Shown: in pieces, positions 3,404 to 44,515 of the stretch
Layout: each line of letters opens with the position of its first letter
How positions within the stretch are numbered: the stretch's first letter is position 1
NCBI RefSeq assembly: GCF_004348595.1
Contig: NZ_SMKD01000001.1
Span: 62,001-126,000, forward strand
Reading direction: 5' to 3'
Source: Micromonospora sp. KC723
GTDB taxonomy: Bacteria; Actinomycetota; Actinomycetes; Mycobacteriales; Micromonosporaceae
Length of the DNA stretch: 64,000 nucleotides
The notes under the pieces: model-generated
Told to the model about the DNA's origin: nothing
The model's database searches: none
What the model saw: only the letters and a program-made list of their open reading frames with translations
Program-made: the position numbers and the translations under genes

Positions 3404-6400
3404 CTACGCCACCTCACCCGGAGCAGTGGCGGTGTCCCGGACGGAGTTGAGGATCGCCACCAGTCGGTCGACGTCGGCGGACGGGAAGATCGACTCCGGT
3501 CCGAGCGGGGCGATCTCGCTGAACGGAGATTCGTAGAGCCGGCCGGGCTCCATGACGCCGTTCTGGGTTAAGTTGGCAATGATCAGGTTGATAAAGCTGA
3601 TCTGGTTCGCGGTGACAGTGCGACCGGCCAGGAACTCGCTGAACGCCTCGCTGGCCGCCTCCCGGTCGAGTCCGACCAGCGAGCGAATGAAGAGCCCGAG
3701 GCCGTGCGCCGACTCGCGTGCCTGGTCGATGTCCTCTGTATCGCCGCCGCTGGCCGCCAGCATCCGCTCCAACTCGTCAAGGTCGGTCGGCGAAAGCTGC
3801 TTGTTGCGGCGCAGCTTCTGCAGCGCCAGGTGGTCCTCGTGGGCGCGCAGGTACACCCGAGCCTTGGCGCGGAACCGCTCGAAATTACCAATCTTGATGT
3901 CGTTCAGCGTGACGACGGAGATCTCACCCAGCTCGTCACTGAAGTCGGTGTAGACGATGGCCCGCTTGGACCTCTCGATCAGCTTGACCAACCCGCGCAG
4001 GCGACGGCGCATCAGCTCCAGCATCGGCAGGGTGACGTCCTGCCACCACTCGTCGCCGGCCACCTCGTCGAGGAGCTGCTGCTGCTCGCGGACCGCCGGG
4101 ATGCTGGTCTGCTCCAGCAGCGTCGAGGCGATGTCCTGCACCTGCCGGCGCAGCCGGTCGTAGGCGGGTTCCACGTCGAGCTGGCCGAGCTGCAGCCGCA
4201 GCACCATCAAGTCGAACCGCTTAGCGGCCTCGTCCTCGTCCTTGACGGCGGTGGGCAAACTGGCGAGGTTGCCGCCGATCTCCTCCACGGCCTCGGGAGT
4301 GAGGCGGTGCCAGTGTCCGAAGTCGATGTAGTACTGGACCAGGCGGCGCTTCGGGCGGACGACGAAGTTGTCGAGGTGGATGTTCTCCACGCGGCGGTGG
4401 AGGTTGCGGGCGAGGTCCCAGCGCAGCGCCGCCTCGCTCTGCGTCCCGTCAGCCTCCGCCTCGACGATGGCGTCGGAGGGAAGGCGCTGGTCGAGGCGGT
4501 AGATGAGTTCGAGCTGGGCCTTGAACAGCCGCTCGGTCAGTGACTCGCCCAGCGTGCCCTCGGCCGCCTTCGGGTTGTGGTTGAAGTACTCGAAATTCTG
4601 GCAGAAGTCGAAGACGAAGAAGTCCTGCTTGTGCTGACCGGGGCCGTAGAGGTCGTCGCAGCGCCGGGTGCCACGGCCGATCATCTGCAGGAACTTCGAC
4701 TTCGACCGCACAATCTTGAAGAAGACCAGGTTGACGACCTCGGGCACGTCGATGCCGGTGTCGAGCATGTCCACCGAGATCGCGATGTGCGGGTCCTTCT
4801 CCTTCTGCGAGAAGTCGTCGATGAGGCTCTGGGCGTACTCGGTCTTGTGGGTGATGACCCGGGCCAGGTGGCCGCGGTGCATCGGGTACGCGAGGTCGAA
4901 CCGCTTCTGGATGAAGTCGGCGTGGGCGTTGTTCTTGGCGAAGATGATGGTCTTACCGATGCGGTCGCCGCCCGCGACGTGGTGGCCGTGGGTCATCAAC
5001 GTCTCTAGGACCTTGTCCACGGTGTCGGTGTTGAACAGCCACTTGTTGACCGCGTCGGGGTCGACGCTGTCCGGCGGTCCGTCGTCACCCCAGTCGAGGG
5101 CGTCCCAGGCGTCCTTCTCCTCCTCGGTGAGGTCGTCGTAGCGGATGCCGTCGCGCTGAAACTTGAGCGGTACGGAGACCGCCCGCGGCGGGACGAGGTA
5201 GCCCTCGTTGACCGCGTCGTCGAGGTCGTAGTGGTCGGTGGGTACGCCGTCTTCGAGGTTGAACAGGCTGTAGGTGTTGCGGTCAATCTCGTTGCGCGGG
5301 GTGGCGGTGAGCCCGACCAGGAGGCTGTCGAACCAGGAAAAGATTGCACGGTACTTCTGGTAGACCGAGCGGTGCGCCTCGTCGATGATGACCAGTTCGA
5401 AGTAGCCGGGGCCGAAGCGCCGCTCGCCGCTGGCGGTCTCGTTGATCAGGCCCATCATGGTCGGGTACGTCGAGACGTACACCCGGCCCTCGGTGTTCTT
5501 CTCGGTGACCAGGTTGACCGTCGCCGCGTCGGGCAGGTGCGCCTTGAACGCGTTGACCGCCTGGTTGACCAGGGCGTTGCGGTCGGCGAGGAACAGCACC
5601 CGCTTGACCCAGTTCGCGTGCATCAGCAGGTCGACCAGGGCGATCACGGTGCGGGTCTTGCCGGCGCCGGTGGCCATCACTACGAGCGCCTGGCGCTGCC
5701 GTTGCGTCTCGAACGCCTCGCCGATCGCCCGGATCGCCCGGTGCTGGTAGTAACGCTCGACGATCTCCTGCTTGATCGGCACGTCCGCGAGCCGCTTGCG
5801 GGTGTCGCGACGCCGGATCAGGATCTGGAGTTCGTCTTTTGTGTAGAAGCCCTGCACCGGGCGCGGCGGGTAGGCGGTGTCGTCCCAGAGCCAGGTCTCG
5901 TAGCCGTTGGTGTAGAAGATGATCGGGCGCTGGCCGTACCGCTGGTCCAGGCAGTCGGCGTACAGCTTGGCCTGCTGCTGGCCGACTGTGGCGTCCCGGC
6001 GGGTGCGCTTCACCTCGACCACCGCGAGCGGCTTGCCGTCGTCACCCCACAGCACGTAGTCGACGTACCCGGTGCCCGTGGCGTTGGGCATTCCGGTGAC
6101 CTCGAACTCGCGGTCCTCCGGGCGGTCGAGCCGCCAGCCGGCCTCCCGCAGCATCAGGTCGATGTAGAGGTCGCGGGTCTGCGCCTCGTTGTAGTCGTGG
6201 TCGTCGGGGCGGGCCTCGTTTGCGGCCTTGGCGGCGGCGATCTCGGCGCGCAGCTTCGCCAACTCGGCGTCGAGGGTGGCTGACTTCTCGCGCTCAGCGG
6301 CCAGCGCCGCGTCCTGGGCAGCGAGCTTGTCGGCCAACGCCTTCAGCTCGGCCTGGGTCTGCTGCCGGACCTGTGACGGGATCGGCCGGGGGATCAGGTC

Positions 6401-6817
6401 CGGGTTGAAGGCCAGGGCGCTCGCCGGGACCTTCGCCTGGTCGCGGGTGTAGTGCCGGGCGATCCAATACGTCACGTGGAACAACTCACGGACGACCGGC
6501 ACCGCCTCCTTCGGCGTCACCGGCGTGCTCTTGTGAACGGCCGTGTTGCCCTGCTTGCGGATGATATTCATCTTGGCCTGGAGGCTGTTGCCCACCAGGT
6601 TGCGCAGCGACGGCTCGTGGATCATCGCCGATAGGTCGTCCTTGTACGGCTTGCTGAGCGCGCCGTCGGCCTCGAAGAGCCAGGTAAGGGCGAGTTCGAG
6701 CGTTCGCCGGGCATAGAAGCACGAGGCCCGCGGGTCGGCGACGGCCAGCCGCTCGGCCCGCAGGGCCTCGCCAAACAGAGCGGGCCACTCAGCCCGCAGG
6801 AACGCGAAGTTGCTCAT
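3404..6817 (-). CDS. hsdR: Type I restriction enzyme R subunit (nuclease-translocase)
   Basis: This 1137-residue subunit cuts unmodified DNA after ATP-driven translocation, in complex with HsdM and HsdS. The N-terminus (about 1-125) looks like a DUF4145/HEPN-like helical domain, followed by a coiled coil (about 150-200). The HSDR_N nuclease domain has D253 and E268-V-K270 as the PD-(D/E)xK residues. The SF2 helicase shows Walker A ATGAGKT near 382-388, DEAH at 479-482, LTATP near 503-507 and a QMIGRGTRR motif VI. All key motifs are intact. I chose ATG 6817 (MSNFAFLRAEWP) because this is the usual start of the family; an in-frame GTG lies at 6835. It is last in the M-S-R operon, 44 bp after hsdS. 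Confidence 0.95.
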   Translation of the reverse strand: MSNFAFLRAEWPALFGEALRAERLAVADPRASCFYARRTLELALTWLFEADGALSKPYKDDLSAMIHEPSLRNLVGNSLQAKMNIIRKQGNTAVHKSTPVTPKEAVPVVRELFHVTYWIARHYTRDQAKVPASALAFNPDLIPRPIPSQVRQQTQAELKALADKLAAQDAALAAEREKSATLDAELAKLRAEIAAAKAANEARPDDHDYNEAQTRDLYIDLMLREAGWRLDRPEDREFEVTGMPNATGTGYVDYVLWGDDGKPLAVVEVKRTRRDATVGQQQAKLYADCLDQRYGQRPIIFYTNGYETWLWDDTAYPPRPVQGFYTKDELQILIRRRDTRKRLADVPIKQEIVERYYQHRAIRAIGEAFETQRQRQALVVMATGAGKTRTVIALVDLLMHANWVKRVLFLADRNALVNQAVNAFKAHLPDAATVNLVTEKNTEGRVYVSTYPTMMGLINETASGERRFGPGYFELVIIDEAHRSVYQKYRAIFSWFDSLLVGLTATPRNEIDRNTYSLFNLEDGVPTDHYDLDDAVNEGYLVPPRAVSVPLKFQRDGIRYDDLTEEEKDAWDALDWGDDGPPDSVDPDAVNKWLFNTDTVDKVLETLMTHGHHVAGGDRIGKTIIFAKNNAHADFIQKRFDLAYPMHRGHLARVITHKTEYAQSLIDDFSQKEKDPHIAISVDMLDTGIDVPEVVNLVFFKIVRSKSKFLQMIGRGTRRCDDLYGPGQHKQDFFVFDFCQNFEYFNHNPKAAEGTLGESLTERLFKAQLELIYRLDQRLPSDAIVEAEADGTQSEAALRWDLARNLHRRVENIHLDNFVVRPKRRLVQYYIDFGHWHRLTPEAVEEIGGNLASLPTAVKDEDEAAKRFDLMVLRLQLGQLDVEPAYDRLRRQVQDIASTLLEQTSIPAVREQQQLLDEVAGDEWWQDVTLPMLELMRRRLRGLVKLIERSKRAIVYTDFSDELGEISVVTLNDIKIGNFERFRAKARVYLRAHEDHLALQKLRRNKQLSPTDLDELERMLAASGGDTEDIDQARESAHGLGLFIRSLVGLDREAASEAFSEFLAGRTVTANQISFINLIIANLTQNGVMEPGRLYESPFSEIAPLGPESIFPSADVDRLVAILNSVRDTATAPGEVA

Positions 6818-6861
6818 CGAGCGCCAACTCCCCACAGTCGACAGCCCTCGATCGTCTCACG

Positions 6862-8034
6862 TCAGAGCAACCCCCGGAAGGCCCGATCCTGCAACGACGC
6901 AAACAGCGTGTCCAGCACGGCTAGCCCGGCTCGCTGGACTGCTCTCAACTCCTCGATGGCATCGATCCGACGAGTGAAGTCTCGCTGCAGTGAAAGGGGA
7001 GGCACTTCAACTTCCGTTGCCATTAGCCTCGCCTTGGAAATGTTGGGCATAGAGCCTGCAGAGCCACCCGCCAGAGATTGAATCTGACGTCGCTTGGACG
7101 GGTATACAAGCAACTGCTGGAGGAACACCTTGTCGATCGCGGCATCGGGATAAAGCTCAAGCCGGAAGACAAGGTCCGGAAGAAGAAGCTTGGGTGGCGT
7201 AACGCGAACAAGAGCACATGCTCCCACCAATTCCCTTGTATTCTTCCTCGAGAAAAGAAGGTCGCCTACCCGAACCGCGTGCTCCTGACGGGGTGCGACT
7301 CCCGGGGGGAGCGCCTTGTTTTCATCCGGCATGAACTCGCAGGAAGTCACCGCCCCAAGCTTGAGAACGCCCCACTCGCCTTCACCCGCTGGGCGGTCAA
7401 GGCACTGCGGGCTGTGGCCGCTGTGAATACGCTCGAGCAACGAGCTCATCGAGACCCTGGACCAGCCGTGCTTGTTTTGGATCGGGTCACCGAACATATC
7501 GAGGAATATGGATCGCGGGAGGTCGTCGAGGCGGGCGAGGGCGTCGCGGCGCTTGGCGCGCAACTCGTCCGCCTGATCCAGCACCTCCGCAATCCTCCGC
7601 TGCTGCTCGAGAGGAGGCACGGGGATGGGGATTCGTGATGCGCCCGCCTTCGTGAGCTTGCCGCGGGTTGTGCCCGTGATGTAAGGCCGTACGTCGTAGT
7701 TCTCCAGCGCTCGACAAAGGAATGCAAGGTCGATACCGTGCCGTGGTCGCAGGACATGGGCGTGGTTGTTCACCCAGGTCTTTCCAGAGATCCGGTACGC
7801 AATACCTCTGTTCGGTGCATCGAAATGGCCACCATCCTCGGCGAGAAGAACCAACGGCTCGTCGAAGATATAGTCCGCCATAGTGCCTTGTTGGCCGTTT
7901 GCGCCGTAGTATGGATAGGGCCCAGCCACTCGGTCGGAGGCGGTAACGGGACGGCGGAGATGGTCAAGGAACTCGACCACCTCCCCGAGGGGTTGAAGAG
8001 TGAAGCGGCCCTCGACTACCTCCCGGGAAATCAT
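6862..8034 (-). CDS. hsdS: Type I restriction enzyme specificity subunit
   Basis: HsdS, 390 residues, sets the recognition sequence of the methylase and the restriction complex. Two target-recognition domains are visible, about 10-165 and 195-375. Each ends in a conserved helix: IPVPPLEQQRRIAEVLDQADELRAKR after the first, and VPPLSLQRDFTRRIDAIEELR after the second. The start codon overlaps the hsdM stop by 4 bp (ATGA), which implies translational coupling. Local base composition is lower in GC than the neighbours outside the island (for example around 7078-7300), consistent with horizontal acquisition. Specificity cannot be read from sequence alone. Confidence 0.93.
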   Translation of the reverse strand: MISREVVEGRFTLQPLGEVVEFLDHLRRPVTASDRVAGPYPYYGANGQQGTMADYIFDEPLVLLAEDGGHFDAPNRGIAYRISGKTWVNNHAHVLRPRHGIDLAFLCRALENYDVRPYITGTTRGKLTKAGASRIPIPVPPLEQQRRIAEVLDQADELRAKRRDALARLDDLPRSIFLDMFGDPIQNKHGWSRVSMSSLLERIHSGHSPQCLDRPAGEGEWGVLKLGAVTSCEFMPDENKALPPGVAPRQEHAVRVGDLLFSRKNTRELVGACALVRVTPPKLLLPDLVFRLELYPDAAIDKVFLQQLLVYPSKRRQIQSLAGGSAGSMPNISKARLMATEVEVPPLSLQRDFTRRIDAIEELRAVQRAGLAVLDTLFASLQDRAFRGLL

Positions 8035-12676: not shown

Positions 12677-12697
12677 GGTCGCACAGTCTGTGCGACC
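12677..12697. promoter_or_regulatory. Perfect palindromic operator candidate between CPBP and flavohaemoprotein genes
   Basis: Ten-bp arms GGTCGCACAG and CTGTGCGACC flank one central T. An extra half-site CTGTGCG recurs at 12721-12727, closer to the flavohaemoprotein start. The position in a divergent promoter suggests a repressor or redox/NO-responsive regulator. The motif does not match an operator I recognise. Confidence 0.55.
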
Positions 12698-12760
12698 GGT
12701 GAGCACGCTGCGTGGACATTCTGTGCGGGCCCGATCCGCCGTCAGGAGGAGGAGCATCCC

Positions 12761-13882
12761 GTGCACGACTTCGCGCGACTGCTGAAGGAGAGCTGGACCC
12801 TGGTCGAGGAGGAACGGGAGCGGCTGAGCGCTCACTTCTACGCCCGGTTGTTCCTCCTCGACCCGGAGCTGCGCAAGCTCTTCCCGGTGGAGATGACCGG
12901 GCAGGGCGACCGGATCCTCAACGCCATCGTCACCGCGACCCAGGTGGTGGACGATCCGGAGAGCTTCGAGGAGTACCTGCGCTCGCTCGGCCGGGACCAT
13001 CGCAAGTACCACGTGGGCGCGTCGCACTACGAGACCATGGGCGTCGCCCTGCTCGACGCGCTGCGCAGCACCGCCGGCGACGGCTGGAACCTGGAGTACG
13101 ACCAGGCGTGGCGGGACGCGTACGCGGCGATCACGGAGAAGATGTTGGCCGGCGCGGCGGCGGACGGGAACCCGCCGTACTGGCATGCCGAGGTGCTCAC
13201 CCACGAGCGGCACGGACCGGACACGGCGGTGCTCACCGTCCGCGCCCTCCAGGCCCCGCTGACCTGGAAGGCCGGTCAGTACGTCAGCGTGGAGGTGCCA
13301 CGGCACCTGCCCCGGGTGTGGCGGACGTACTCGGTGGCGAACGCGCCGAACGAGGACAACGTGCTGGAGTTCCACGTGCGGACCCCGGCCGGGGCCGCGG
13401 GTTGGGTGTCGGGCGCGCTGGTCCGGCGGACGAGGCCGGGCGACCTTGTCCGGGTGGCCGCGCCGATGGGGTCGATGACGCTGAACCGCGACTCGACCCG
13501 GGACATCCTCTGCGTGGCCGGCGGCGTCGGGCTGGCCCCGATCAAGGCGCTGGTGGAGGACCTGACGACCTGGAACCGGACCCGCTGGGTGCACGTCTTC
13601 TACGGCGCCCGGAACCAGGACGAGTTGTACGGCCTGGCGGGGCTGGAGGAACTGGTGGCCGCCCATCCCTGGCTGTCGGTGACCCCCGCGTGCAGCGACG
13701 ACCCGGACTTCGACGGTGAGCAGGGCGACGTCTCGGAGGTGGTGGCCCGGTACGGCCCGTGGACGTCGCACGACTGCTACGTCTCCGGCTCCGCCCCGAT
13801 GGTCCGGGCCACCCTGCGGGCGCTCGCGGAGGACGAGGTCCCGCCACCGCACATCCGGTACGACACCTTCGGTACCGGGTAG
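12761..13882 (+). CDS. Flavohaemoprotein (globin-FAD-NAD reductase)
   Basis: A 373-residue protein with the three-part architecture of NO dioxygenase-type flavohaemoglobins. The globin domain occupies about 1-135, with Tyr27 at B10 (HFYARLF) and a likely proximal His80 (GRDHRKYHV). The FAD domain has RTYS at 188-191. The NAD-binding domain has GGVGLAP (about 254-260) and ends in IRYDTFGTG. GTG 12761 has an excellent SD (AGGAGGAGGA). Family members convert NO to nitrate with NAD(P)H and O2, although some actinobacterial forms act on other substrates. The palindrome upstream is the likely control site. Confidence 0.93.
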   Translation: MHDFARLLKESWTLVEEERERLSAHFYARLFLLDPELRKLFPVEMTGQGDRILNAIVTATQVVDDPESFEEYLRSLGRDHRKYHVGASHYETMGVALLDALRSTAGDGWNLEYDQAWRDAYAAITEKMLAGAAADGNPPYWHAEVLTHERHGPDTAVLTVRALQAPLTWKAGQYVSVEVPRHLPRVWRTYSVANAPNEDNVLEFHVRTPAGAAGWVSGALVRRTRPGDLVRVAAPMGSMTLNRDSTRDILCVAGGVGLAPIKALVEDLTTWNRTRWVHVFYGARNQDELYGLAGLEELVAAHPWLSVTPACSDDPDFDGEQGDVSEVVARYGPWTSHDCYVSGSAPMVRATLRALAEDEVPPPHIRYDTFGTG

Positions 13883-13902
13883 CGACTTTCCTCCCCCCGA
13901 AA

Positions 13903-13942
13903 CCGGGTCGCGTGCCCCCGCCCCCTGGGGCACGCGACCCGG
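13903..13942. terminator. Strong hairpin after the flavohaemoprotein gene
   Basis: Perfect 16-bp arms (CCGGGTCGCGTGCCCC at 13903-13918 against 13927-13942) with an 8-nt loop, 20 bp past the stop codon. It is the first of two tandem hairpins between convergent genes. Confidence 0.75.
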
Positions 13943-13950
13943 GCCCCACA

Positions 13951-14007
13951 CCGGTCCCTGACGGCGTCCCTGCCGTACCCCCCGCGCGGGACGCCGTCAG
14001 GGACCGG
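13951..14007. terminator. Second hairpin, overlapping the 3' end of the deformylase-fusion gene
   Basis: Perfect 20-bp arms at 13951-13970 and 13988-14007, loop 17 nt. The right arm includes the TGA of the convergent XRE-deformylase gene, so the stem can form in both transcripts. Confidence 0.75.
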
Positions 14008-15502
14008 TCCCCCGGTACTCCTCGACCGGGACCAGCGGCACGCCGGGTGCCATCCGATCGGTGTAGAGGCGCCCCTCCAGGTGGTCCACCTCGTGGGCGA
14101 CCAACCGGGCCATCCCGTACGCGAACGAGGTGATGACGCGGCTGCCGTCCCAGCGGGCGTGTTCGACGTCGATCCGCAGCGGTCGGGGCACCAGCCCCCG
14201 GTGGTCGGCGAAGGAGAGGCAGCCTTCGTACTGCTCGTCGGTGTCCGGGCTGGCGTCGACCACCCGGGGGTTGAGCAGGACGACCGGCGCGGCGGACCGG
14301 TCGGGGGGGCGGACCACGGCGGCGGCCGCGTCCATGCCGACCTGCGGGGCGGCCAGCCCCATGCCGGCACTGAACGGTTTCAGCTCGTCGACCCTGGTCA
14401 GCAGGGCGGTCAACCGGTCCACCGTCTCCCGGGCGGCGGCCACCTCGCGGGGCAGGTCGAACGGGCGGGCGGGGCGGCGCAGCAGGTCCGCGTCGCGGGG
14501 CAGCACGCCGAGTGCGTGCAGCCGGTCGCCGGCCCGCACGGCCACCGCCGCCCGTTCCGCGTCGGCGGGTTCGCCCCGGAACCGCCACTGGAGGCGGTAG
14601 CGGGAGTTCAGCGGCGGGTCGTCGATGGACCAGTCGAAGACGGCCCGGTCGGCCCGGTCGTGCCGGCGTACCGGGGTACGCAGGGGGCCCTCGTCGGCGG
14701 AGAGGGAGGCTTCCACGCCCCAGACCCGGGGGTCGAGCGCGGCCGGCAGGTCGAGCCGCACCGCGAGGTGGTGGGTGGGCAGCCGGACGGCCCGCTGGAA
14801 CCAGAGCCCCCACTTCTCCCGCCCGACCTGGTAGGAGTACTCGACCTCGACCCGTTCGCCGGGGTGCAGCGGGAAGGGGCCGTCGCCGTTCTCGAAGAGC
14901 AGCCAGATCTCCTTGTACGCGTCCCGGTCGTGTTTGGCCCGCCAGTGCATCGGTTCCCGGTTGCCGCCGTCGTCCCGGTACGCCCGCAGCCGCAGCTCGG
15001 CGAAGGTGAGCGGGTGCTCGCGGTGATGCCGGTTGGAGCGGCCGGGGTCGTCGGGCCAGCGGTCGACGGCGACCCGGACGAGGTGGCGGGTGACCGGTTC
15101 GGTGCCGACGTTGTGCAGTTGCCGGCGGACCAGGCAGCGGTAGCCGTCGTCGGTGTGGATGAGGGTGGCGGTCTCCCGTTCGACGACCAGTCCGGTGCCC
15201 GGGGGGAGCCACTGCCCCGTCGGTGGCAGTTCGCGGTGGGTGGGGGCGGCCTTGGCCTGGCGGAGCTGGTCGTACTCACGGAAGCGTTGCCAGATGGCGC
15301 CGCCGGCGTCGAGGACGGCTTCGGCGCGGCGCGCGAAGTCCTCGGTGGGGCGGTGCCGGCACCCCTCGACGTGGCTGACGTATGACGGGTCGAAGCCCAT
15401 CAGGGTGGCGAGCTGTTTCTTGGAGAGTCCCCGCCCCGTCCGGTGCCGGGCCAGTTCCGCGGCGAAGGACTCAGCAGCCCGCTCCAGGGGAGAGGTCGTC
15501 AT
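13997..15502 (-). CDS. XRE-family HTH regulator fused to a peptide deformylase domain
   Basis: A 501-residue fusion. Residues about 5-75 form an XRE helix-turn-helix (GLSKKQLATLMGFDPSYVSHVEGCRHRP). Residues 95-310 are a conserved beta-rich middle region found in actinobacterial XRE regulators. Residues 350-501 are a peptide deformylase with all three motifs: GMGLAAPQ (380-387), EGCLS (426-430) and HEVDH (470-474), so the metal ligands Cys428, His470 and His474 and the catalytic Glu471 are present. A complete active site fused to a DNA-binding domain suggests an enzyme that also regulates, or a sensor of formyl-peptides. ATG 15502 has GAGGA 5 nt upstream. Confidence 0.9.
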   Translation of the reverse strand: MTTSPLERAAESFAAELARHRTGRGLSKKQLATLMGFDPSYVSHVEGCRHRPTEDFARRAEAVLDAGGAIWQRFREYDQLRQAKAAPTHRELPPTGQWLPPGTGLVVERETATLIHTDDGYRCLVRRQLHNVGTEPVTRHLVRVAVDRWPDDPGRSNRHHREHPLTFAELRLRAYRDDGGNREPMHWRAKHDRDAYKEIWLLFENGDGPFPLHPGERVEVEYSYQVGREKWGLWFQRAVRLPTHHLAVRLDLPAALDPRVWGVEASLSADEGPLRTPVRRHDRADRAVFDWSIDDPPLNSRYRLQWRFRGEPADAERAAVAVRAGDRLHALGVLPRDADLLRRPARPFDLPREVAAARETVDRLTALLTRVDELKPFSAGMGLAAPQVGMDAAAAVVRPPDRSAAPVVLLNPRVVDASPDTDEQYEGCLSFADHRGLVPRPLRIDVEHARWDGSRVITSFAYGMARLVAHEVDHLEGRLYTDRMAPGVPLVPVEEYRGTGP

Positions 15503-15720
15503 CAGCTTCCTCACGGCCGGGACGACAAGTCTTCACGTTGTGCCGCTTCGGCCGCAGCCGAACTGGCACCTAGCCGACATTGGTCTTGACACCAGACGAG
15601 TTTTGCTCATGACCGATCGGGTAGTACGCGGGCCCGGGCCGGTCCGCGTCGACGCCGCCAGCGGAGTGACCCGGGCCTCTTCGTTCTTTGGTGAGGCTTC
15701 CCCTAACGCGAACGCTATGG

Positions 15721-15739
15721 TTAGGCTAGCCTTAGTAAC
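15721..15739 (+). promoter_or_regulatory. Iron box (DtxR/IdeR-type operator)
   Basis: TTAGGCTAGCCTTAGTAAC resembles the 19-bp actinobacterial iron-box consensus (TTAGGTTAGGCTAACCTAA), with the TTAGG-TAG-CCT core kept. It lies 31 bp upstream of the FhuF-like start codon. Iron-loaded DtxR/IdeR/DmdR would repress transcription here. A weaker resemblance at about 15691-15706 may be a second site. Confidence 0.75.
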
Positions 15740-15769
15740 GATGACGCTTCGGACGAGGGGAACGATCCG

Positions 15770-16561
15770 GTGACAGCGGTGATGCCGAGGCAAGACCTCG
15801 CCCCGCCGCTCGCCCCGGTGACCACCACCCTCCGCGCCATGTTCGGCACCGACGACCTGCCCGGCCTCGCGCCGGGCCTGCTGGTGGCGGACGAGACCGG
15901 GTGGAGCCCGGCGACCAGCCTGGTCGACGGCACCCTGATGCCCGAGTTTCTGCACGCGGCGGCCCGCCGCTGGGGCGGCACCCCGCACGCCTGCGCCGCG
16001 CTGGCCTGGAAGTCCTACAGCTACTGGGTTGCCCTGCCGGCGGTGCTCGGCTGGGCGTCGGCGCGCCGCGTACCGCTGCTCGAACCAGCCGACGTGCTGA
16101 TCCACTTCGAGGACCAGCACCAGCTGCTCACCATGGGCCTGCGTGCCTCCACCCGCGTCGCCGTGCTCCCGCACGACCCACTGGCACTGTCCGGGCCCGC
16201 CGAGGTCCGGGTGGTCGACGGCGAGGCGGAACTGCTCCGGGTGCTGCGCGCCTCCCTGCTCGACGCGCACCTGGCCCCGGTGATCGCCGCGATCCAGGCG
16301 GAGGTCCGGGTCGGTGCCCGTACGCTGCTCGGCTCGGTCGCCTCCGGGATCGCGCACGGCGTCCTGCGCGCGGCGGACGCCCTGCCGGGTTCCTCGGTGC
16401 GGGCGGTCGACACCCTGCTGGACGTCCTCGACCTGGCCGACCTGGTCGAGCTGGTGCCCGGCCCCGGCGGGGAGCCGACGGTGCAGCGGCGGACCTGCTG
16501 CCTCGCCTTCACCCTGCCGAGCCCGAAGATCTGCCAGGGCTGCTGCGTCCGTTCCGCCTGA
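15770..16561 (+). CDS. FhuF-like (2Fe-2S) siderophore ferric-iron reductase
   Basis: A 263-residue protein of the ferric iron reductase FhuF type, which releases iron from hydroxamate siderophores by reduction. The diagnostic C-terminus RRTCCLAFTLPSPKICQGCC provides the CC-x10-C-x2-C spacing for the [2Fe-2S] cluster. The N-terminal two-thirds is a helical domain without strong motifs. GTG 15770 has GAGGGGA 8 nt upstream. The iron box just upstream fits iron-repressed expression. Confidence 0.9.
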   Translation: MTAVMPRQDLAPPLAPVTTTLRAMFGTDDLPGLAPGLLVADETGWSPATSLVDGTLMPEFLHAAARRWGGTPHACAALAWKSYSYWVALPAVLGWASARRVPLLEPADVLIHFEDQHQLLTMGLRASTRVAVLPHDPLALSGPAEVRVVDGEAELLRVLRASLLDAHLAPVIAAIQAEVRVGARTLLGSVASGIAHGVLRAADALPGSSVRAVDTLLDVLDLADLVELVPGPGGEPTVQRRTCCLAFTLPSPKICQGCCVRSA

Positions 16562-37806: not shown

Positions 37807-38538
37807 ATGATCGGGATGGTGCTGGCGGCCGGCGCGGGACGCCGGCTGCGGCCGTACACCGACACGCTGCCCAAGGCGTTGGTGCCGGTGGACGGTGACA
37901 CCACCATCCTCGACATCGCGCTACGCAACCTGGCCGAGGTGGGGCTGACCGAGATCGTGATCGTCGTCGGGTACGCCGCCGACGCGGTCGCCACCCGCCA
38001 GGTGGAGCTGGAGAGGCGCTACGGCGTCACCCTCACCCTGGTGCACAACGACCGGGCCGAGGAGTGGAACAACGCCTACTCGCTCTGGCTGGCCCGCGAG
38101 CACTTCGCCCGGGGCGTGCTGCTGGTCAACGGCGACACGGTGCACCCGGTGAGCGTGGAGAAGACCCTGCTGGCCGAGCGCGGCCCGGGCATCCTGCTCG
38201 CCGTCGACACCATCAAGACGCTGGCCGAGGAGGAGATGAAGACGACCTTCGACGCCGCCGGCCAGCTCACCCGGATCACCAAGCTGATGGACCCGGGCGA
38301 GGCGTACGGCGAGTACATCGGCGCGACGCTGATCGAGCCGCAGGTGGCCGACGGGCTCGCCGACGCGCTGGAGGCGACCTGGCGGCGCGACCCGAACCTC
38401 TACTACGAGGACGGCTACCAGGAGTTCGCCGACCGTGGCGGCGAGGTGCGGGCGGCGCCGATCGGGGACGTGGCCTGGGTCGAGGTCGACAACCACGAGG
38501 ATCTGGCCCGCGCGCGGGAGATCGCGTGCCGCTACTAG
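37807..38538 (+). CDS. Sugar/polyol-phosphate nucleotidyltransferase
   Basis: A 243-residue NTP-transferase. The activation signature is VLAAGAGRRLRPYTDTLPKALVPV, followed by GYAADAV, a metal-binding NGD and EYIGATLIEPQVADGL. The DVAWVEVDNHEDLARAREIA end is typical of CTP:phosphocholine- and inositol-1-phosphate-type cytidylyltransferases. It should make a CDP- or other NDP-activated alcohol. ATG 37807 has GAGGGAGGA upstream. It is the first of three tightly linked genes (the next starts 13 bp before its stop). Confidence 0.88.
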   Translation: MIGMVLAAGAGRRLRPYTDTLPKALVPVDGDTTILDIALRNLAEVGLTEIVIVVGYAADAVATRQVELERRYGVTLTLVHNDRAEEWNNAYSLWLAREHFARGVLLVNGDTVHPVSVEKTLLAERGPGILLAVDTIKTLAEEEMKTTFDAAGQLTRITKLMDPGEAYGEYIGATLIEPQVADGLADALEATWRRDPNLYYEDGYQEFADRGGEVRAAPIGDVAWVEVDNHEDLARAREIACRY

Positions 38539-39593
38539 CCCGCACGGTGCTCACCCCGCTGCACATCGACGTGCGGCGGGGAGCGGTGGCCGACCTGGGC
38601 GCGATCCTCGCCGACGGACGGATCTCGGCCGGCGGTGACGTGGCGGTGGTGGTGGGGCCGGGTCAGGGCGAGCAGATCGCCGAGCTGATCCGGCCGTCGT
38701 TGCGCTCCGCCGACGTGTTCACCGTCGTCGGCGGCACCCTGGAGGCCGCCGACGACCTGGGGGCCAAGTTGCGCGCCCGGTCGTACGACGCGGTGGTCGG
38801 CATCGGCGGCGGCAAGACGATCGACGTCGCCAAGTACGCGGCGACCCGGCGCGGGTTGCCCATGGTGTCGGTCGCGACAAGTCTGGCCAACGACGGCATC
38901 GCCTCGCCGGTAGCCAGCCTGGTCAGCGAGGGCCACAAGGGGTCCTACGGGGTGCACATCCCGATCGCGGTCATCGTCGACCTGGACTTCGTCGAGAGTG
39001 GCCCGGACCGGACCAACCGGGCGGGCATCGGCGACGCCGTCAGCAACATCAGCGCCCTGGCCGACTGGGAGCTGGCCCGCCAGGTCCGGGGCGAGCCGGT
39101 CGACGGGCTGGCCGCCTCGCTGGCCCGGATGGGGGCCGAGGCGGTGCTCGCCCACCCCGGCGACATGACCGACGACGCGTTCGTCACGGTGCTCGCCGAG
39201 GCGTTGATCTCCAGCGGCCTGGCGATGGCGGTCTGCGGCACCAGCCGGCCGGCCAGCGGCGGCTGCCACGAGATCATGCACGCCATCGACGCGCTCTACC
39301 CCGGTACCGCCTCGCACGGCGAACTCGCCGGCCTGGGGGCGCTGTTCTGCACCTGGCTACGCGGCGACCGCCGCCGGTTCACGGAGATGTCGGCCTGCCT
39401 GGCCCGGCACCAACTGCCCCGGCTCCCCGCCGACGTGGGGCTCACCGACGACCAGTTCGTCGAGGCGGTGCGGTTCGCGCCGGGCACCCGGCCGGACCGG
39501 TACACCATCCTGGAGCACCTGGCGATGTCGCCTTCCGAGACGCGGGAGCGGCTGGCAGACTACGCCGGTGCGATCCGCGACCACTGTGGTTGA
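38526..39593 (+). CDS. sn-glycerol-1-phosphate dehydrogenase-like enzyme (EgsA/AraM family)
   Basis: A 355-residue metal-dependent dehydrogenase of the Fe-ADH_2 group. The NAD(P) motif is GIGGGKTIDVAKYAA. ATSLANDGIASPVASL, GIGDAVSN (metal Asp), GGCHEIMHAIDAL (metal His) and SHGELAGLG (second His) match G1PDH/AraM. Such enzymes reduce dihydroxyacetone phosphate to sn-glycerol-1-phosphate, the archaeal lipid stereoisomer, and bacterial AraM does the same. Some relatives act on other cyclic or polyol phosphates, so the substrate is not certain. GTG 38526 overlaps the upstream gene; it overlaps the downstream gene by 26 bp. Confidence 0.85.
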   Translation: MPLLARTVLTPLHIDVRRGAVADLGAILADGRISAGGDVAVVVGPGQGEQIAELIRPSLRSADVFTVVGGTLEAADDLGAKLRARSYDAVVGIGGGKTIDVAKYAATRRGLPMVSVATSLANDGIASPVASLVSEGHKGSYGVHIPIAVIVDLDFVESGPDRTNRAGIGDAVSNISALADWELARQVRGEPVDGLAASLARMGAEAVLAHPGDMTDDAFVTVLAEALISSGLAMAVCGTSRPASGGCHEIMHAIDALYPGTASHGELAGLGALFCTWLRGDRRRFTEMSACLARHQLPRLPADVGLTDDQFVEAVRFAPGTRPDRYTILEHLAMSPSETRERLADYAGAIRDHCG

Positions 39594-40290
39594 GCCCCGT
39601 CCCACCGTCGCCGACTTCCACCGGGTGAACCGGGGTGGCGGCCTGTTCAGCGAGTCAATCAGCCAGTGGATCGGCGCGGTCTTCGCGCTGGTCGCCCAGC
39701 GGCTCGGGCTACGCCCGACCGCGCTGACCATCACCAACCTGGTGCTCGGCCTGGCCACCTCGGTGATCGTGGTGGCGCTCGCCACCCGGGTCGCCGGGGG
39801 CGACGTCCCGGCCTGGGTGGTCGGGCTGGTCGCGCTGGTCGGCTGGCAGATCGCGTACGCCCTGGACTGCGCCGACGGTCAGCTCGCCCGGGTCACCGGC
39901 ACCGGCAGCCCGGCGGGGGCCCGGGTGGACGTGCTCTGCGACGTGGCGGCCCAGATCGCCCTGGTGGCGGCACTCGGCGCGACCGCCGTGGCGCAGCGCC
40001 CGGGGACGCCGTCCTGGCTGGTGGCGGTCTTCGCCGGCACCTGGATGGTGAACCTGGTGACCTCGGTGATGCAGTCCGGGCCGAACGCGGCCAGCATGGT
40101 CACCTCGACCTCCCTGCCGGTACGCCTGGTCAAGTTGGTCCGGGACTACGGCGCGGTGATCTTCGTGGCGGCGCTGGTGCTGATGCTGGCTCCCGCGCTC
40201 ACCTTCTGGGTGGTCGTGGCGTTCACCGTCGTCAACGGCGGTTTCCTGCTGGCCAGCATCGCCTTCTCCGCCCGCGCCTCGCTCCGCTGA
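39568..40290 (+). CDS. CDP-alcohol phosphatidyltransferase family protein
   Basis: A 240-residue membrane enzyme. The CDP-OH signature is complete in DCADGQLARVTGTGSPAG followed by ARVDVLCDVAA (DG-x2-AR-x8-G-x3-D-x3-D). About five to six transmembrane helices follow. It joins a CDP-activated group to an alcohol or phospholipid acceptor. GTG 39568 begins inside the dehydrogenase gene, so the trio is probably translated as a unit. In archaea and Thermotogales a cytidylyltransferase plus this domain makes di-myo-inositol phosphate. Confidence 0.9.
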   Translation: MRSATTVVEPRPTVADFHRVNRGGGLFSESISQWIGAVFALVAQRLGLRPTALTITNLVLGLATSVIVVALATRVAGGDVPAWVVGLVALVGWQIAYALDCADGQLARVTGTGSPAGARVDVLCDVAAQIALVAALGATAVAQRPGTPSWLVAVFAGTWMVNLVTSVMQSGPNAASMVTSTSLPVRLVKLVRDYGAVIFVAALVLMLAPALTFWVVVAFTVVNGGFLLASIAFSARASLR

Positions 40291-40398: not shown

Positions 40399-41679
40399 TC
40401 AGGGGCGGCGGGTGGCGGCGAGGTCGGCGTAGATGTCGAGGTGGCGCTTGATGACCACGTCGGGGTGGAAGGTGCGCTCGTAGCGGGCGCGGGCGGCGGC
40501 GGCGAGCGCCGGAGCCCCGGCCCGCGCCACCGGCAGCGCGGCGGCCAGCGCGGCGGGGTCCGGCGGCACCACCCAGCCGGCCTCCCCGGTGACCAGGCCG
40601 GCCGGCAGCGCCGACGGGCCGGCCGGCGGCGGAAGGTGGCCGGCGACGGCGGAGGCGGTCGCGGCCGGGCCCGTGCCGGCGGGCTCGTGCGGGGAGTCCG
40701 CCCCGATCAGGTACGGGATACCGCCGAGCGCGGTGCCCAGCACCGGCCGGCCGCTCGCCAACGCCTCGATGATCACGGTCGGCAACACGTCGTGCCACAT
40801 GGCGGCGGCGATCACCACCGCGCTCGCCTCGACCGCGGCCCGTACCCCGGCGCGGTCGAGCTGGCCGAGGTAGACCACGTCGGCCCGTTCGGCGGCGGCT
40901 GCCTCGACCAGTGGGCGCAGCTCACCGTCGCCGGCCACGCGGAGCGTGCCCAGGCTGCCCACCGGATGCCGGCGCCACGCGTCCAGCAGCAGGTCGAGGC
41001 CCTTCTCCGGGGTGAGCCGGGCCAGGTAGAGGAAGCCGTCGCCGAGCGGCGCCGGCGCACCCGGGTCCGGCACCGAGTTGGGCTTGACCACGATCCGGTC
41101 CGCCGGGATGCCGTAGTCGCGCAGGTGGTCGGCGATCGCCGAGGTCAGCGCGATGAAACGGTCCACCGACCGCCAGGTGCCCCGGTGCACCGCGAGCGTG
41201 GTCGCCATCAGCGCGCTCTGCGCCGCCGAGCCCCGGTAGCAGCGGTGCACGATCGCCGGCACGCCCAACGCCCGACCCTTGCAGTCCTGGCAGATCACCC
41301 CGTCCCGGAAGTAGATGCCGGAGGAGCAGACCTGCCGGTAGTTGTGCACCGTCTGCACCACCGGCACGCCGTGCCGGTGCGCCGTGCGCACCACCCAGGG
41401 CGAGAGCAGCGGGTACGGGTTGTGCAGGTGGAGCACGTCCGGCCGGTGCGCGGTGAGCAGGCGGCCCAGGTCCTCCTGCGCGCGGGGCGCCCAGATCGGG
41501 GAGATCGGCAACAACGCCTTGGCCGCCCGCGACATCGACGGGATCTCGTCGGAACTGCGGATGAACGGCAACACCTCGACGCCGGCCGACCTGAGCTGGG
41601 TGATCTCCGAGTCGACCATGGTGTTCTCGCCGGAGGGCTGGGCTTCCCGGTACCGGTTGTGCGCCACCACGATCCTCAC
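40399..41679 (-). CDS. Family 4 glycosyltransferase
   Basis: A 426-residue GT-B enzyme. The N-terminal domain begins MRIVVAHNRYREAQPSGENTMV and contains HLHNPYPLLSPWVV and a Cys-rich insert (CSSGIYFRDGVICQDCKGR, HRCYRGS). The C-terminal nucleotide-sugar domain has FLYLARLTPEKGLDLLLDAW and the catalytic EALASGRPVLGTALGGIPYLI. It probably builds an exopolysaccharide or glycolipid. GTG 41679 has a weak SD (AAGG/AAGC). It is convergent with the nucleotidyltransferase trio and divergent from the Fpg/Nei gene. Confidence 0.92.
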   Translation of the reverse strand: MRIVVAHNRYREAQPSGENTMVDSEITQLRSAGVEVLPFIRSSDEIPSMSRAAKALLPISPIWAPRAQEDLGRLLTAHRPDVLHLHNPYPLLSPWVVRTAHRHGVPVVQTVHNYRQVCSSGIYFRDGVICQDCKGRALGVPAIVHRCYRGSAAQSALMATTLAVHRGTWRSVDRFIALTSAIADHLRDYGIPADRIVVKPNSVPDPGAPAPLGDGFLYLARLTPEKGLDLLLDAWRRHPVGSLGTLRVAGDGELRPLVEAAAAERADVVYLGQLDRAGVRAAVEASAVVIAAAMWHDVLPTVIIEALASGRPVLGTALGGIPYLIGADSPHEPAGTGPAATASAVAGHLPPPAGPSALPAGLVTGEAGWVVPPDPAALAAALPVARAGAPALAAAARARYERTFHPDVVIKRHLDIYADLAATRRP

Positions 41680-41815
41680 GGAGCTTGCCTTTCGTTCGCG
41701 ACTGGGCCGACCTCTGCTCGCGGCTGCGGGGCTGGTGAGCTCGCCCCTCGCGCCCGCGGTGGGAACTCGCGAGCTCGTTCCCCGCGCTCACGGGAAAGAA
41801 GGCTACCGTTGGGAC

Positions 41816-42676
41816 GTGCCCGAACTACCGGAGGTGGAGGCGCTCGCGGGCTACCTGCGTGAGCGCGCGGTGGGGCGGCGCGTCGGCCGGGTCGAGGTCG
41901 CCGCGATCAGCGCCCTGAAGACGTACGACCCGATGCCGGAGACGGTGTCGGGCCGGGACGTGGTGGACGCCCGGCGGCACGGCAAGTTCCTCGACGTGGT
42001 CTTCGACGGTGGCCTGCACCTGGTGGTGCACCTGGCCCGCGCGGGCTGGCTGCACTACCGGGAGGCGTTCGGCTCCACCGTCCCGTTGCGCCCCGGAAAG
42101 GGCCCGGTCGCCCTGCGGGTACGCCTCGACGACGGGTCCGGTTTCGACCTGACCGAGGCCGGCACCCAGAAGAAGCTGGCCGCGTACCTGGTGACCGACC
42201 CGGGGCAGGTGCCCGGGGTGGCCAGGCTCGGCCCGGACGCGCTCGACGCCGACCTGGCCACCTTCGCAGAACGGATGCGCAGCCGCCGGGGCCAGGTCAA
42301 GGGCGTGCTGACCGACCAGACGGTGCTCGCCGGCGTCGGCAACGCGTACTCCGACGAGATCCTGCACGCGGCGAAGCTGTCCCCGTTCGCGCTCACCGAC
42401 CGGCTCACCGACGACCAGCTGGCCGCCCTGCACGCGGCGACCCGGGCGGTCCTCGGCGACGCGGTCCGACGGTCGGTCGGGCAGCGGGCGGCGGAGCTGA
42501 AGGGCGAGAAGCGCTCCGGGCTCAAGGTGCACGCCCGGACCGGGCTGCCCTGTCCGGTCTGCGGCGACACCGTCCGGGAGGTCTCGTTCGCCGACTCCAG
42601 CCTCCAGTACTGCCCGACCTGCCAGACCGGGGGCAAACCGCTCGCTGACCGTCGGTTGTCCCGCCTCGTACGGTGA
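41816..42676 (+). CDS. Fpg/Nei family DNA glycosylase
   Basis: A 286-residue bifunctional DNA glycosylase/AP lyase. The start VPELPEVEALAGYLRER gives the catalytic N-terminal Pro and Glu once the initiator residue is removed. The H2TH motif is VLAGVGNAYSDEILHAAKLSP. The C-terminal zinc finger is CPVCGDTVREVSFADSSLQYCPTC. The finger spacing and KFLDVVFDGG match actinobacterial Fpg2/Nei2-like proteins, so the lesion range may differ from classic MutM. GTG 41816 is used. Confidence 0.92.
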   Translation: MPELPEVEALAGYLRERAVGRRVGRVEVAAISALKTYDPMPETVSGRDVVDARRHGKFLDVVFDGGLHLVVHLARAGWLHYREAFGSTVPLRPGKGPVALRVRLDDGSGFDLTEAGTQKKLAAYLVTDPGQVPGVARLGPDALDADLATFAERMRSRRGQVKGVLTDQTVLAGVGNAYSDEILHAAKLSPFALTDRLTDDQLAALHAATRAVLGDAVRRSVGQRAAELKGEKRSGLKVHARTGLPCPVCGDTVREVSFADSSLQYCPTCQTGGKPLADRRLSRLVR

Positions 42677-42952
42677 GTGACAGCACGTCTCGATTACGGA
42701 GAGGAATCGCCCTCGGCGCGTGGAACGTGCCCCTCCGCGCCTCTACCCGACCCCTCATCCATCGGTATAGTGGCTCGGTCCCCGGCTTCCAAAGTGACCT
42801 GGAGCCGGCCGGATCCCCGCCGGCAACACCTGACGCAATGTCCCTCGGGTCAGCGTCCGGCCGCTGCCCGCGTGGGAGACTGGAACGGTGGGCGACGTGC
42901 GCCCCTCACTGCGAGTGAGCGGCGCGTGTCATGCGGGAGGACATGGGTTGAG

Positions 42953-44515
42953 GTGACGACAAGCCTCCAGCGCCCGGGAACCTACATAGGCCGGAGCAAA
43001 GTAGTGCGGCACGTCGACAGCTTCGAGATCCAGCCGCCGACACCGCCGTCGCACAACGGCGTACCCCGGTCGGCGTGGGCTCGCGCCCGTCGTCGGGTGT
43101 CCCGCTGGCACCGGCCCTACACCGTCATCCTCCTGCTGCTCGACCTCGCCGCCGTGATGCTGGCCGACTGGATCGCCCAGGAGGTGTTCGGGCAGGCCCG
43201 GGCCGGTTTCTACAAGGCCCAGGAGGACCCGACGTGGTTCTACACGGTGGCGTTCCTGCTGCTGCCGCTCGGCTGGGTGGTCATCCTCTGGGGCAACCGG
43301 GCCTACGACCGGCGTTACCTGGGGCTCGGCCCGGACGAGTTCAAGCGGGTGATCCGGGGCGGCGTCGCGGTGGCCGCGACCGTCTCCTTCCTCGCGTTCG
43401 CCACCAAGACCGACCTGTCCCGCTGGTCGGTCGGTTTCGCCCTGCTCGGGGCGTTGATCCTGATCCTGGCCGGGCGGTTGCTCGCCCGGTTCACGCTGCA
43501 CGCGGTACGCCGCCGGGCCGGCCACGCCGGGCACCGGATGGTGCTGGTCGGCACCCTGCCGGAGTGCCTGGAGGTCTACACCGCGGTCACCCGCAACCCC
43601 GGAGCCGGCCTGGTGCCGGTCGCCATCCACATCACCGACGGGTACGCCGCCGCCCGGGGCATCGAGACTCCCGTGCCGGTGTACGCGGGCCGGGATGTCC
43701 TCGCCCTGGTCCGCGAGGTCGGCGGCGACACCATCGCGGTGTGCGGCTCGGCCAGCGCCGAGCCGGGCGAGTTGCGCCGGCTGGCCTGGCAGTTGGAGGG
43801 CTCCGGCGTCGACCTGGTGGTCGCCCCGCAGCTGACCGACATCGCCGGCCCCCGGGTGCACATCCGCCCGATCGAGGGCCTGCCGCTGCTGCACGTCGAG
43901 GAGCCGACCCTGTCGGGTCCGGCGCTGCTGGCCAAGAACCTGATGGACCGGGTCGCCGCCGGGCTGGGCCTGCTGCTGCTGGTACCGGTCTTCGTCGCGA
44001 TCGCGGCCGCGATCCGGCTCTCCGATCCCGGGCCGGTCTTCTTCCGCCAGCCCCGGGTGGGCCACGAGGGCCGCACCTTCCGGGTCTGGAAGTTCCGCAC
44101 CATGTACGTCGACGCGGAGGAGCGGCTGGCCGGCCTGGTCGACCAGAACGAGACCGACGGCATGCTGTTCAAGATGCGGCAGGACCCTCGGGTCTTCCCG
44201 GTGGGCCGCTTCCTGCGCGCCTCGTCGCTGGACGAGCTGCCCCAGCTGATCAACGTGCTCTGGGGGGAGATGTCGCTGGTGGGGCCGCGTCCGCTCCCCG
44301 CCGACGACGGCGACTTCCTGGGCGACGTGCGGCGTCGGCTGCTGGTCCGTCCGGGCATGACCGGGCTGTGGCAGGTCTCCGGCCGCTCCGACCTGTCCTG
44401 GGACGAGGCGGTCCGGTTGGATCTCTACTACGTCGACAACTGGTCGCTGGCGTACGACCTGAGCATCCTGTGGCGGACGGTGGGCGTGGTACTGGCCCGC
44501 AAGGGCGCGTACTGA
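42953..44515 (+). CDS. Exopolysaccharide initiating sugar (polyprenyl-phosphate) transferase
   Basis: A 520-residue membrane enzyme of the polyisoprenyl-phosphate hexose-1-phosphate transferase family. Four N-terminal helices (about 50-190) and a CoA-binding-like central domain (190-320) precede the catalytic PglC/WbaP-like domain (about 325-520), with DPGPVFFRQPRVGHEGRTF, KFRTM and SLDELPQLINVLWGEMSLVGPRP. It starts lipid-linked glycopolymer synthesis by adding sugar-1-phosphate to undecaprenyl phosphate. GTG 42953 is used; GTG 42926 is in frame upstream. Confidence 0.92.
   Translation: MTTSLQRPGTYIGRSKVVRHVDSFEIQPPTPPSHNGVPRSAWARARRRVSRWHRPYTVILLLLDLAAVMLADWIAQEVFGQARAGFYKAQEDPTWFYTVAFLLLPLGWVVILWGNRAYDRRYLGLGPDEFKRVIRGGVAVAATVSFLAFATKTDLSRWSVGFALLGALILILAGRLLARFTLHAVRRRAGHAGHRMVLVGTLPECLEVYTAVTRNPGAGLVPVAIHITDGYAAARGIETPVPVYAGRDVLALVREVGGDTIAVCGSASAEPGELRRLAWQLEGSGVDLVVAPQLTDIAGPRVHIRPIEGLPLLHVEEPTLSGPALLAKNLMDRVAAGLGLLLLVPVFVAIAAAIRLSDPGPVFFRQPRVGHEGRTFRVWKFRTMYVDAEERLAGLVDQNETDGMLFKMRQDPRVFPVGRFLRASSLDELPQLINVLWGEMSLVGPRPLPADDGDFLGDVRRRLLVRPGMTGLWQVSGRSDLSWDEAVRLDLYYVDNWSLAYDLSILWRTVGVVLARKGAY

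Follow-up and report, generated by a model that had tools for sequence, protein, structure and literature searches.

A three-gene operon in the 6.1 Mb genome of Micromonospora sp. KC723, encoding a LicC-like nucleotidyltransferase (NT), a dehydrogenase resembling sn-glycerol-1-phosphate (G1P) dehydrogenases (DH) and an integral-membrane CDP-alcohol phosphotransferase (CDPT), plausibly makes CDP-sn-1-glycerol, which would be used at the membrane by CDPT and probably by a TagF-type polymerase. The identity of the genes, their coupling, their conservation and catalytic residues, their co-occurrence with a large CDP-alcohol protein and with TagF, and the lack of a TagD or GGGPS match here are observed directly. 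From these features we infer the substrates and their stereochemistry, the acceptor and the polymer.

An overlapping operon conserved in Micromonosporaceae

Within the window, i.e., the whole 64,000-nucleotide stretch analysed, the operon comprises the following features:

37807..38538, plus strand: NT, LicC-like nucleotidyltransferase, 243 aa; ATG start with GGGAGG upstream of it
38526..39593, plus strand: DH, sn-glycerol-1-phosphate-dehydrogenase-like enzyme, 355 aa; GTG start
39568..40290, plus strand: CDPT, integral-membrane CDP-alcohol phosphotransferase, 240 aa; GTG start, alternative in-frame GTG at 39586
39865..39942, plus strand: CDP-alcohol motif of CDPT, residues D100 to D125, read from the sequence

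All three genes are on the plus strand, with overlaps of 13 bp (NT/DH) and 26 bp (DH/CDPT), which confirms the tight packing described in an earlier note on this DNA. The gene identities given there (nucleotidyltransferase, G1PDH-like enzyme, CDP-alcohol transferase) are upheld by Pfam, with NT matching NTP_transferase (8.8e-14), DH Fe-ADH_2 (5.4e-33) and CDPT CDP-OH_P_transf (3.8e-08), each exceeding its curated cut-off. In the neighbouring segment of the window (40399-44515), a GT4 glycosyltransferase gene in convergent orientation to the trio is accompanied by an Fpg-type frame (recognised by eye) and a gene for an exopolysaccharide polyprenyl glycosylphosphotransferase. All three are present in 58 of 80 Micromonosporaceae loci, some of the 80 not extending far enough to include them.

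Scanning named genomes with a pattern gave 130 confirmed DH relatives, of which the best 80, all Micromonosporaceae by title, were used, a choice that favours close relatives; the nearest named one, judged by DH, belongs to Micromonospora (97% identity). NT, DH and CDPT occur in the same order in 80/80 of this set, each time with the 13 bp NT/DH overlap, so the arrangement is not due to chance. The DH/CDPT overlap is 26 bp at the homologous start in 47/80 and takes other values in 33/80, part of these deviations arising because local matches stop short of the start. Among 200 Micromonosporaceae genomes sampled, DH (E <= 1e-50) is present in 161 and absent from 39; restricted to the 184 genomes with a completeness of 90% or more, the count is 157. 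It is therefore common in the family, not universal.

Across a phylum sample of 396 genomes, at E <= 1e-20, DH was identified in 46, NT in 31 and both in 29. From the 45 other genomes with a DH match, 29 DH loci were fetched: NT lies within 1.5 kb of DH in 26/29 and a CDP-alcohol match does so in 22/29. Among the 20 loci where DH matches at E <= 1e-100, these figures are 18/20 for NT and 20/20 for the CDP-alcohol match. At NT's place L095 has another reading frame, UDP-sugar-dehydrogenase-like by eye; in L103 NT is 16 kb away on the same contig, and in L110 one gene separates NT from DH. The CDP-alcohol match is on the opposite strand in L095, which belongs to the stronger DH group, and in L111, which with L110 makes up the weaker-DH loci having such a match nearby. 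No CDP-alcohol match was found within 1.5 kb of DH in L109, L112 and the five loci scanned from family f9 (15 DH genomes), all five of which have NT-DH. The earlier note had named separate occurrence of the three genes in relatives as evidence against itself; NT and DH mostly stay together, while some NT-DH pairs stand without a CDP-alcohol gene. In two f9 loci (L136, L137) NT-DH is followed by a protein of 538 to 641 aa, an alkaline-phosphatase-type phosphodiesterase by eye, and further downstream by a relative of the window's exopolysaccharide glycosylphosphotransferase.

DH resembles G1P dehydrogenases

DH meets its best family in the NCBIfam G1PDH model NF002022 (252 bits, versus 61 bits for glycerol dehydrogenase), which bears out the G1P-type enzyme of the earlier note at a score below the archaeal equivalog cut-off of 413 bits. 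The domain score of 114.5 bits for Fe-ADH_2 (cut-off 28) places it in the EgsA/AraM-like G1PDH superfamily, and its PDB sequence matches include 3ce9, 4rgq and 5fb3, the top chain (3ce9) being labelled glycerol dehydrogenase and the next four G1PDH. Two aspartates and three histidines (D123, D170, H248, H252, H264), which we take to be the metal and substrate ligands of G1PDH, are kept in the alignment columns of 81/81 Micromonosporaceae sequences, and in 18 sequences from outside the family with D170E in L131 as the sole exception. From its sequence, DH would thus be of the sn-glycerol-1-phosphate dehydrogenase type, converting DHAP to G1P. A passage of PMC5059525 already includes an Actinobacteria-containing group among the G1PDHs.

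The G1PDH likeness of DH would also suit an archaeal-type G1P ether lipid (prenyl-glyceryl phosphate) made by the trio, comparable to AraM and PcrB in Bacillus, and an archaeal-kind G1P lipid was among the products suggested in the earlier note. However, GGGPS/PcrB was not matched (E <= 1e-4) in any of 24 DH genomes, archaeal and B. subtilis controls being positive, and the archaeal ether lipid was rejected on this absence in 24/24. We also know of no cytidylyltransferase acting on a polyol phosphate in the AraM-PcrB route, and consider such a product highly improbable.

NT resembles cytidylyltransferases of small alcohol phosphates

The best PDB sequence for NT is LicC (7.3e-15). In structural comparison, its AlphaFold2 model (pLDDT 94.9) best matches PntC (Z 28.1, 2.3 A over 234 residues), followed by IPCT (Z 25.6) and LicC (Z 25.2), with sugar enzymes ranking in between. 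Since sugar and small-alcohol enzymes score so closely together, the substrate of NT is not fixed by the fold alone. NT has the NTP_transferase domain, the nucleotide motif and the fold of LicC-like small-alcohol cytidylyltransferases, a fold common to sugar enzymes, and its LAAGxGxRLxP and NNxYSL stretches are present in 80/80 relatives. We propose that NT is a CTP:glycerol-1-phosphate cytidylyltransferase.

That PntC, a phosphonate cytidylyltransferase, tops the structural matches, and that DH falls below the G1PDH equivalog cut-off, would be consistent with NT-DH activating another small phosphorylated alcohol or a phosphonate. The G1PDH residues retained in DH argue against this, as does PEP mutase, for which there was no match at E <= 1e-10 in the source genome and none above the cut-off in 24 DH genomes (0/24; nearest G182, 308.9 of 319.55 bits); on the former absence a phosphonate pathway was rejected. 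We regard this alternative as unlikely.

CDPT carries the canonical CDP-alcohol phosphotransferase motif

The canonical D..DG..AR.8.G...D...D motif is present in CDPT of 79/80 relatives, and D100, D103, G104, A107, R108, G117, D121 and D125 do not vary across alignment A1 (32 rows). The fourth Asp of this motif is the usual catalytic base. It is replaced by Ala or His in 12/12 of the small CDP-alcohol proteins encoded downstream of DH in other families (L120-L131), and mostly kept in the large CDP-alcohol protein of the same loci. No clear orthology links CDPT to that small protein, the third gene of other families; orthology of the three CDP-alcohol types was considered and set aside, the tree giving three clades with long branches and unsettled mutual relations. 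We propose that CDPT uses CDP-1-glycerol.

The predicted model of CDPT is of modest confidence (67.5), and its 20 best Foldseek matches, none of which reaches E <= 0.001, are CDP-alcohol enzymes without exception. The best of these, with the same limits on model and E value, is the A. fulgidus di-inositol-phosphate enzyme, which would suit a soluble phosphodiester such as glycerophosphoinositol, produced by NT, DH and CDPT as a compatible solute; a passage of PMC8262930 similarly cites a Gro1P-preferring A. fulgidus activity and ties CDP-1-glycerol to archaeal glycerophosphoinositol. However, NT and CDPT score only 51.7 and 21.9 bits against the NCBIfam model for di-inositol-phosphate synthesis (NF041135, cut-off 580), and the association with an exporter and a polymerase (below) also speaks against a solute, which we consider improbable. 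Di-inositol phosphate itself, which the earlier note had brought up, was rejected on these scores.

Gene context points to a teichoic-acid-like polymer

Eleven DH genomes belong to one genus, presumed to be Streptomyces, whose synteny fits a passage of PMC13118837 describing, in Streptomyces, the synteny of araM, tagG, tagH, CDP-alcohol and nucleotidyltransferase genes and tying it to teichoic acid biosynthesis and secondary metabolism. That passage gives the synteny without a pathway, and no report of the operon's function came up in searches of an open-access library. In 6/6 loci read from these 11 genomes, the main locus consists of the large CDP-alcohol protein, NT, DH, the small CDP-alcohol protein, GT2, TagG and TagH. 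The order is identical in L125, and likewise in L128 and L129 but with TagGH 5 to 7 kb further. The large protein comes after DH in L126, with a TagF between, and is lacking from L131; the L127 stretch is without TagGH, and L130 shows only DH, the small protein and GT2, its contig carrying NT, the large protein and TagGH at a more distant site (L148).

In the source genome the large CDP-alcohol protein lies on a contig other than the trio's, adjoining TagG, TagH and a GT2-TagF fusion (PF04464, 2e-113), an order repeated in a second Micromonospora genome; in other families it adjoins NT-DH. It was identified (E <= 1e-25) in 21 of the 396 phylum genomes, all 21 DH-positive, and in 20 of the 21 genomes with DH at E <= 1e-100 (the miss being G045). 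DH and TagF are no more than 10 kb apart in G386 and G121. The same holds in G334 for TagF and a second copy of DH (L119, 9379-10506), which has no full NT alongside; near this copy are two TagF genes and a GT2 bearing a TarS-type linker domain. The gene context thus points to a teichoic-acid-like polymer, a product absent from the list in the earlier note, whose interpretation as a whole is partly supported.

The source genome also has a second teichoic-type locus (L145; G000:C248:40000-59900, at 12696-15943 and 5804-7567). An IspD-short-chain-dehydrogenase fusion of the CDP-ribitol kind is found there beside two diverged PF04464 proteins and relatives of TagG and TagH (55% and 67% identical to the Streptomyces-like ones), and TagF of this genome could therefore use CDP-ribitol as donor.

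DH and TagD mark different TagF genomes

PF04464 (E <= 1e-5) was identified in 47 of the 396 phylum genomes, 18 of them DH-positive (p 2e-7; lineages in these co-occurrence counts are not independent). With the 11 presumed Streptomyces and the two Micromonospora each counted once, the association of DH with strong TagF gives p 0.004. A search for TagD, which usually serves as the glycerol-3-phosphate cytidylyltransferase, covered the 75 genomes that have DH or PF04464: five exceed the cut-off, nine reach at least 97 bits and 20 match at E <= 1e-10, the best match in the source genome being 39 bits against a cut-off of 165. With thresholds picked after the hits were known (TagF E <= 1e-40, TagD at least 97 bits), 30 genomes have a strong TagF, of which 17 have DH, 6 TagD, none both and 7 neither (DH versus TagD, Fisher p 0.003). 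In 5/11 presumed Streptomyces genomes, TagD-like sequences match weakly, at 58 to 66 bits. In one TagD-bearing stretch (G085, L158), TagF-type genes are present and TagG and TagH are 38% and 52% identical to those of the source genome.

A single IspD match (E <= 1e-10) was found in 9 of the 17 genomes with DH and strong TagF (G161, G171, G334, G352, G369, G121, G381, G183, G386), so these nine show no sign of a TarI-type CDP-ribitol enzyme; in three of them (G171, G352, G369), TagD-like sequences match weakly, at 58 to 65 bits. One CDP-polyol source for all TagF genomes was ruled out by the seven strong-TagF genomes with neither DH nor TagD. In G174, G260, G319 and G364, a further IspD-like gene lies no more than 12 kb from TagF; in G316 and G343, the TagF stretch (L154, L155) includes an NT-like gene; and G257 is accounted for by neither. 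The NT-like gene (L154, 5394-6089; L155, 13607-14299) is 31 to 32% identical and lies in TagF/TagH stretches of genomes without a DH or TagD match.

Strong TagF is absent from 29/46 DH genomes, and family f9 has no PF04464 match. The former would be expected if CDP-1-glycerol served a membrane phospholipid or glycolipid, CDPT making a Kennedy-type transfer to diacylglycerol or glycolipid with no role in teichoic acid. CDPT is moreover coupled to DH while TagF is unlinked in the source genome, and among PDB sequences CDPT significantly matches only choline/ethanolamine phosphotransferases. Against a purely lipid role stand the co-occurrence of DH with TagF and with the large CDP-alcohol protein beside TagGH-TagF, and the continuation of the NT-DH operon into TagGH in all six presumed Streptomyces loci read. 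We consider it rather unlikely; CDPT might nonetheless form a lipid head group of a novel type.

A proposed route through CDP-1-glycerol

In the route that we favour, DH would reduce dihydroxyacetone phosphate to sn-glycerol-1-phosphate, NT would join this to the CMP moiety of CTP, giving CDP-1-glycerol, and CDPT would transfer glycerol-1-phosphate from it to a hydroxyl group on an acceptor in the membrane, whether a lipid, a glycolipid or a lipid-linked sugar. This CDP-1-glycerol would probably also serve as donor to the TagF-type polymerase, whose gene lies elsewhere in the genome, and a TagF so fed would build a wall or lipoteichoic acid of the glycerol-phosphate enantiomer opposite to that of Bacillus wall teichoic acid.

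This reading is favoured by DH, which scores best with G1PDHs and keeps the presumed ligands; by NT, which resembles the small-alcohol-phosphate cytidylyltransferases LicC, IPCT and PntC; and by the conservation of the trio, the large CDP-alcohol protein by TagGH-TagF, the co-occurrence of DH with TagF and the lack of any genome with both DH and TagD among the 30 with strong TagF. Counting against it are the score of DH (252 of 413 bits), the family genomes without DH, the DH genomes without strong TagF, family f9 without PF04464 and the CDP-ribitol-type fusion of the source genome, together with the weak TagD-like matches in presumed Streptomyces, the lack of clear orthology between CDPT and the third gene of other families, and the nearly equal fit of the NT fold to sugar nucleotidyltransferases. 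According to a passage of PMC8262930, the TagF-like polymerase Cps7D builds polymer from pure CDP-1-glycerol, which counts for the pathway, and Cps3D is inactive with it, which counts against.

More tentatively, actinomycete teichoic and lipoteichoic acids might in general derive from CDP-sn-1-glycerol by way of a G1PDH and a LicC-like NT, with CDP-alcohol phosphotransferases priming the chain on lipid, in a pathway free of LtaS and TagD and of handedness opposite to that of Bacillus. A passage of PMC3196553 reports very similar polyglycerol-phosphate backbones in the lipoteichoic and wall teichoic acids of S. hygroscopicus, offering a common pathway as a hypothesis, and finds clear LtaS orthologues missing from the actinobacterial genomes then known. 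The operon fits the gap that a missing clear LtaS leaves in the synthesis of polyglycerol-phosphate lipoteichoic acid by actinomycetes. The trio is also a probable supplier of glycerol for the teichoic-acid-like wall polymers of these bacteria, a source so far unexplained. CDP-1-glycerol is held likely to be absent from bacteria in a passage of PMC8262930; for this question and for that of LtaS-less lipoteichoic acid, named and widely conserved genes are now in hand. If the proposal is true, a large group of bacteria puts the archaeal lipid enantiomer to a second use, in wall polymers, and the stereospecific GlpQ described in a passage of PMC7086022 should recognise the polymer.

Comparison with known systems

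The proposed job of NT, supplying CDP-glycerol to a TagF-type polymerase, is that of TagD in the TagD-TagF system of teichoic acid synthesis; however, the two belong to separate families, and NT's substrate would be the opposite enantiomer, coming from a dedicated dehydrogenase. LicC, IPCT and PntC have a fold like that of NT, and the NN.YSL stretch is common to the LicC and NT sequences, but they are 22 to 24% identical to NT over the structural alignment and act on different substrates, whereas NT is tied to a dehydrogenase. The same proposed product is formed by A. fulgidus lysates, which prefer Gro1P according to a passage of PMC8262930; that activity is archaeal, only a preference for Gro1P, and, according to the same passage, without an identified enzyme. 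Finally, DH has the Fe-ADH_2 family and the presumed catalytic residues in common with EgsA of archaea and AraM of B. subtilis, from which it differs in scoring below the archaeal equivalog cut-off and in being coupled, instead of to a GGGPS partner, to a cytidylyltransferase-like gene.
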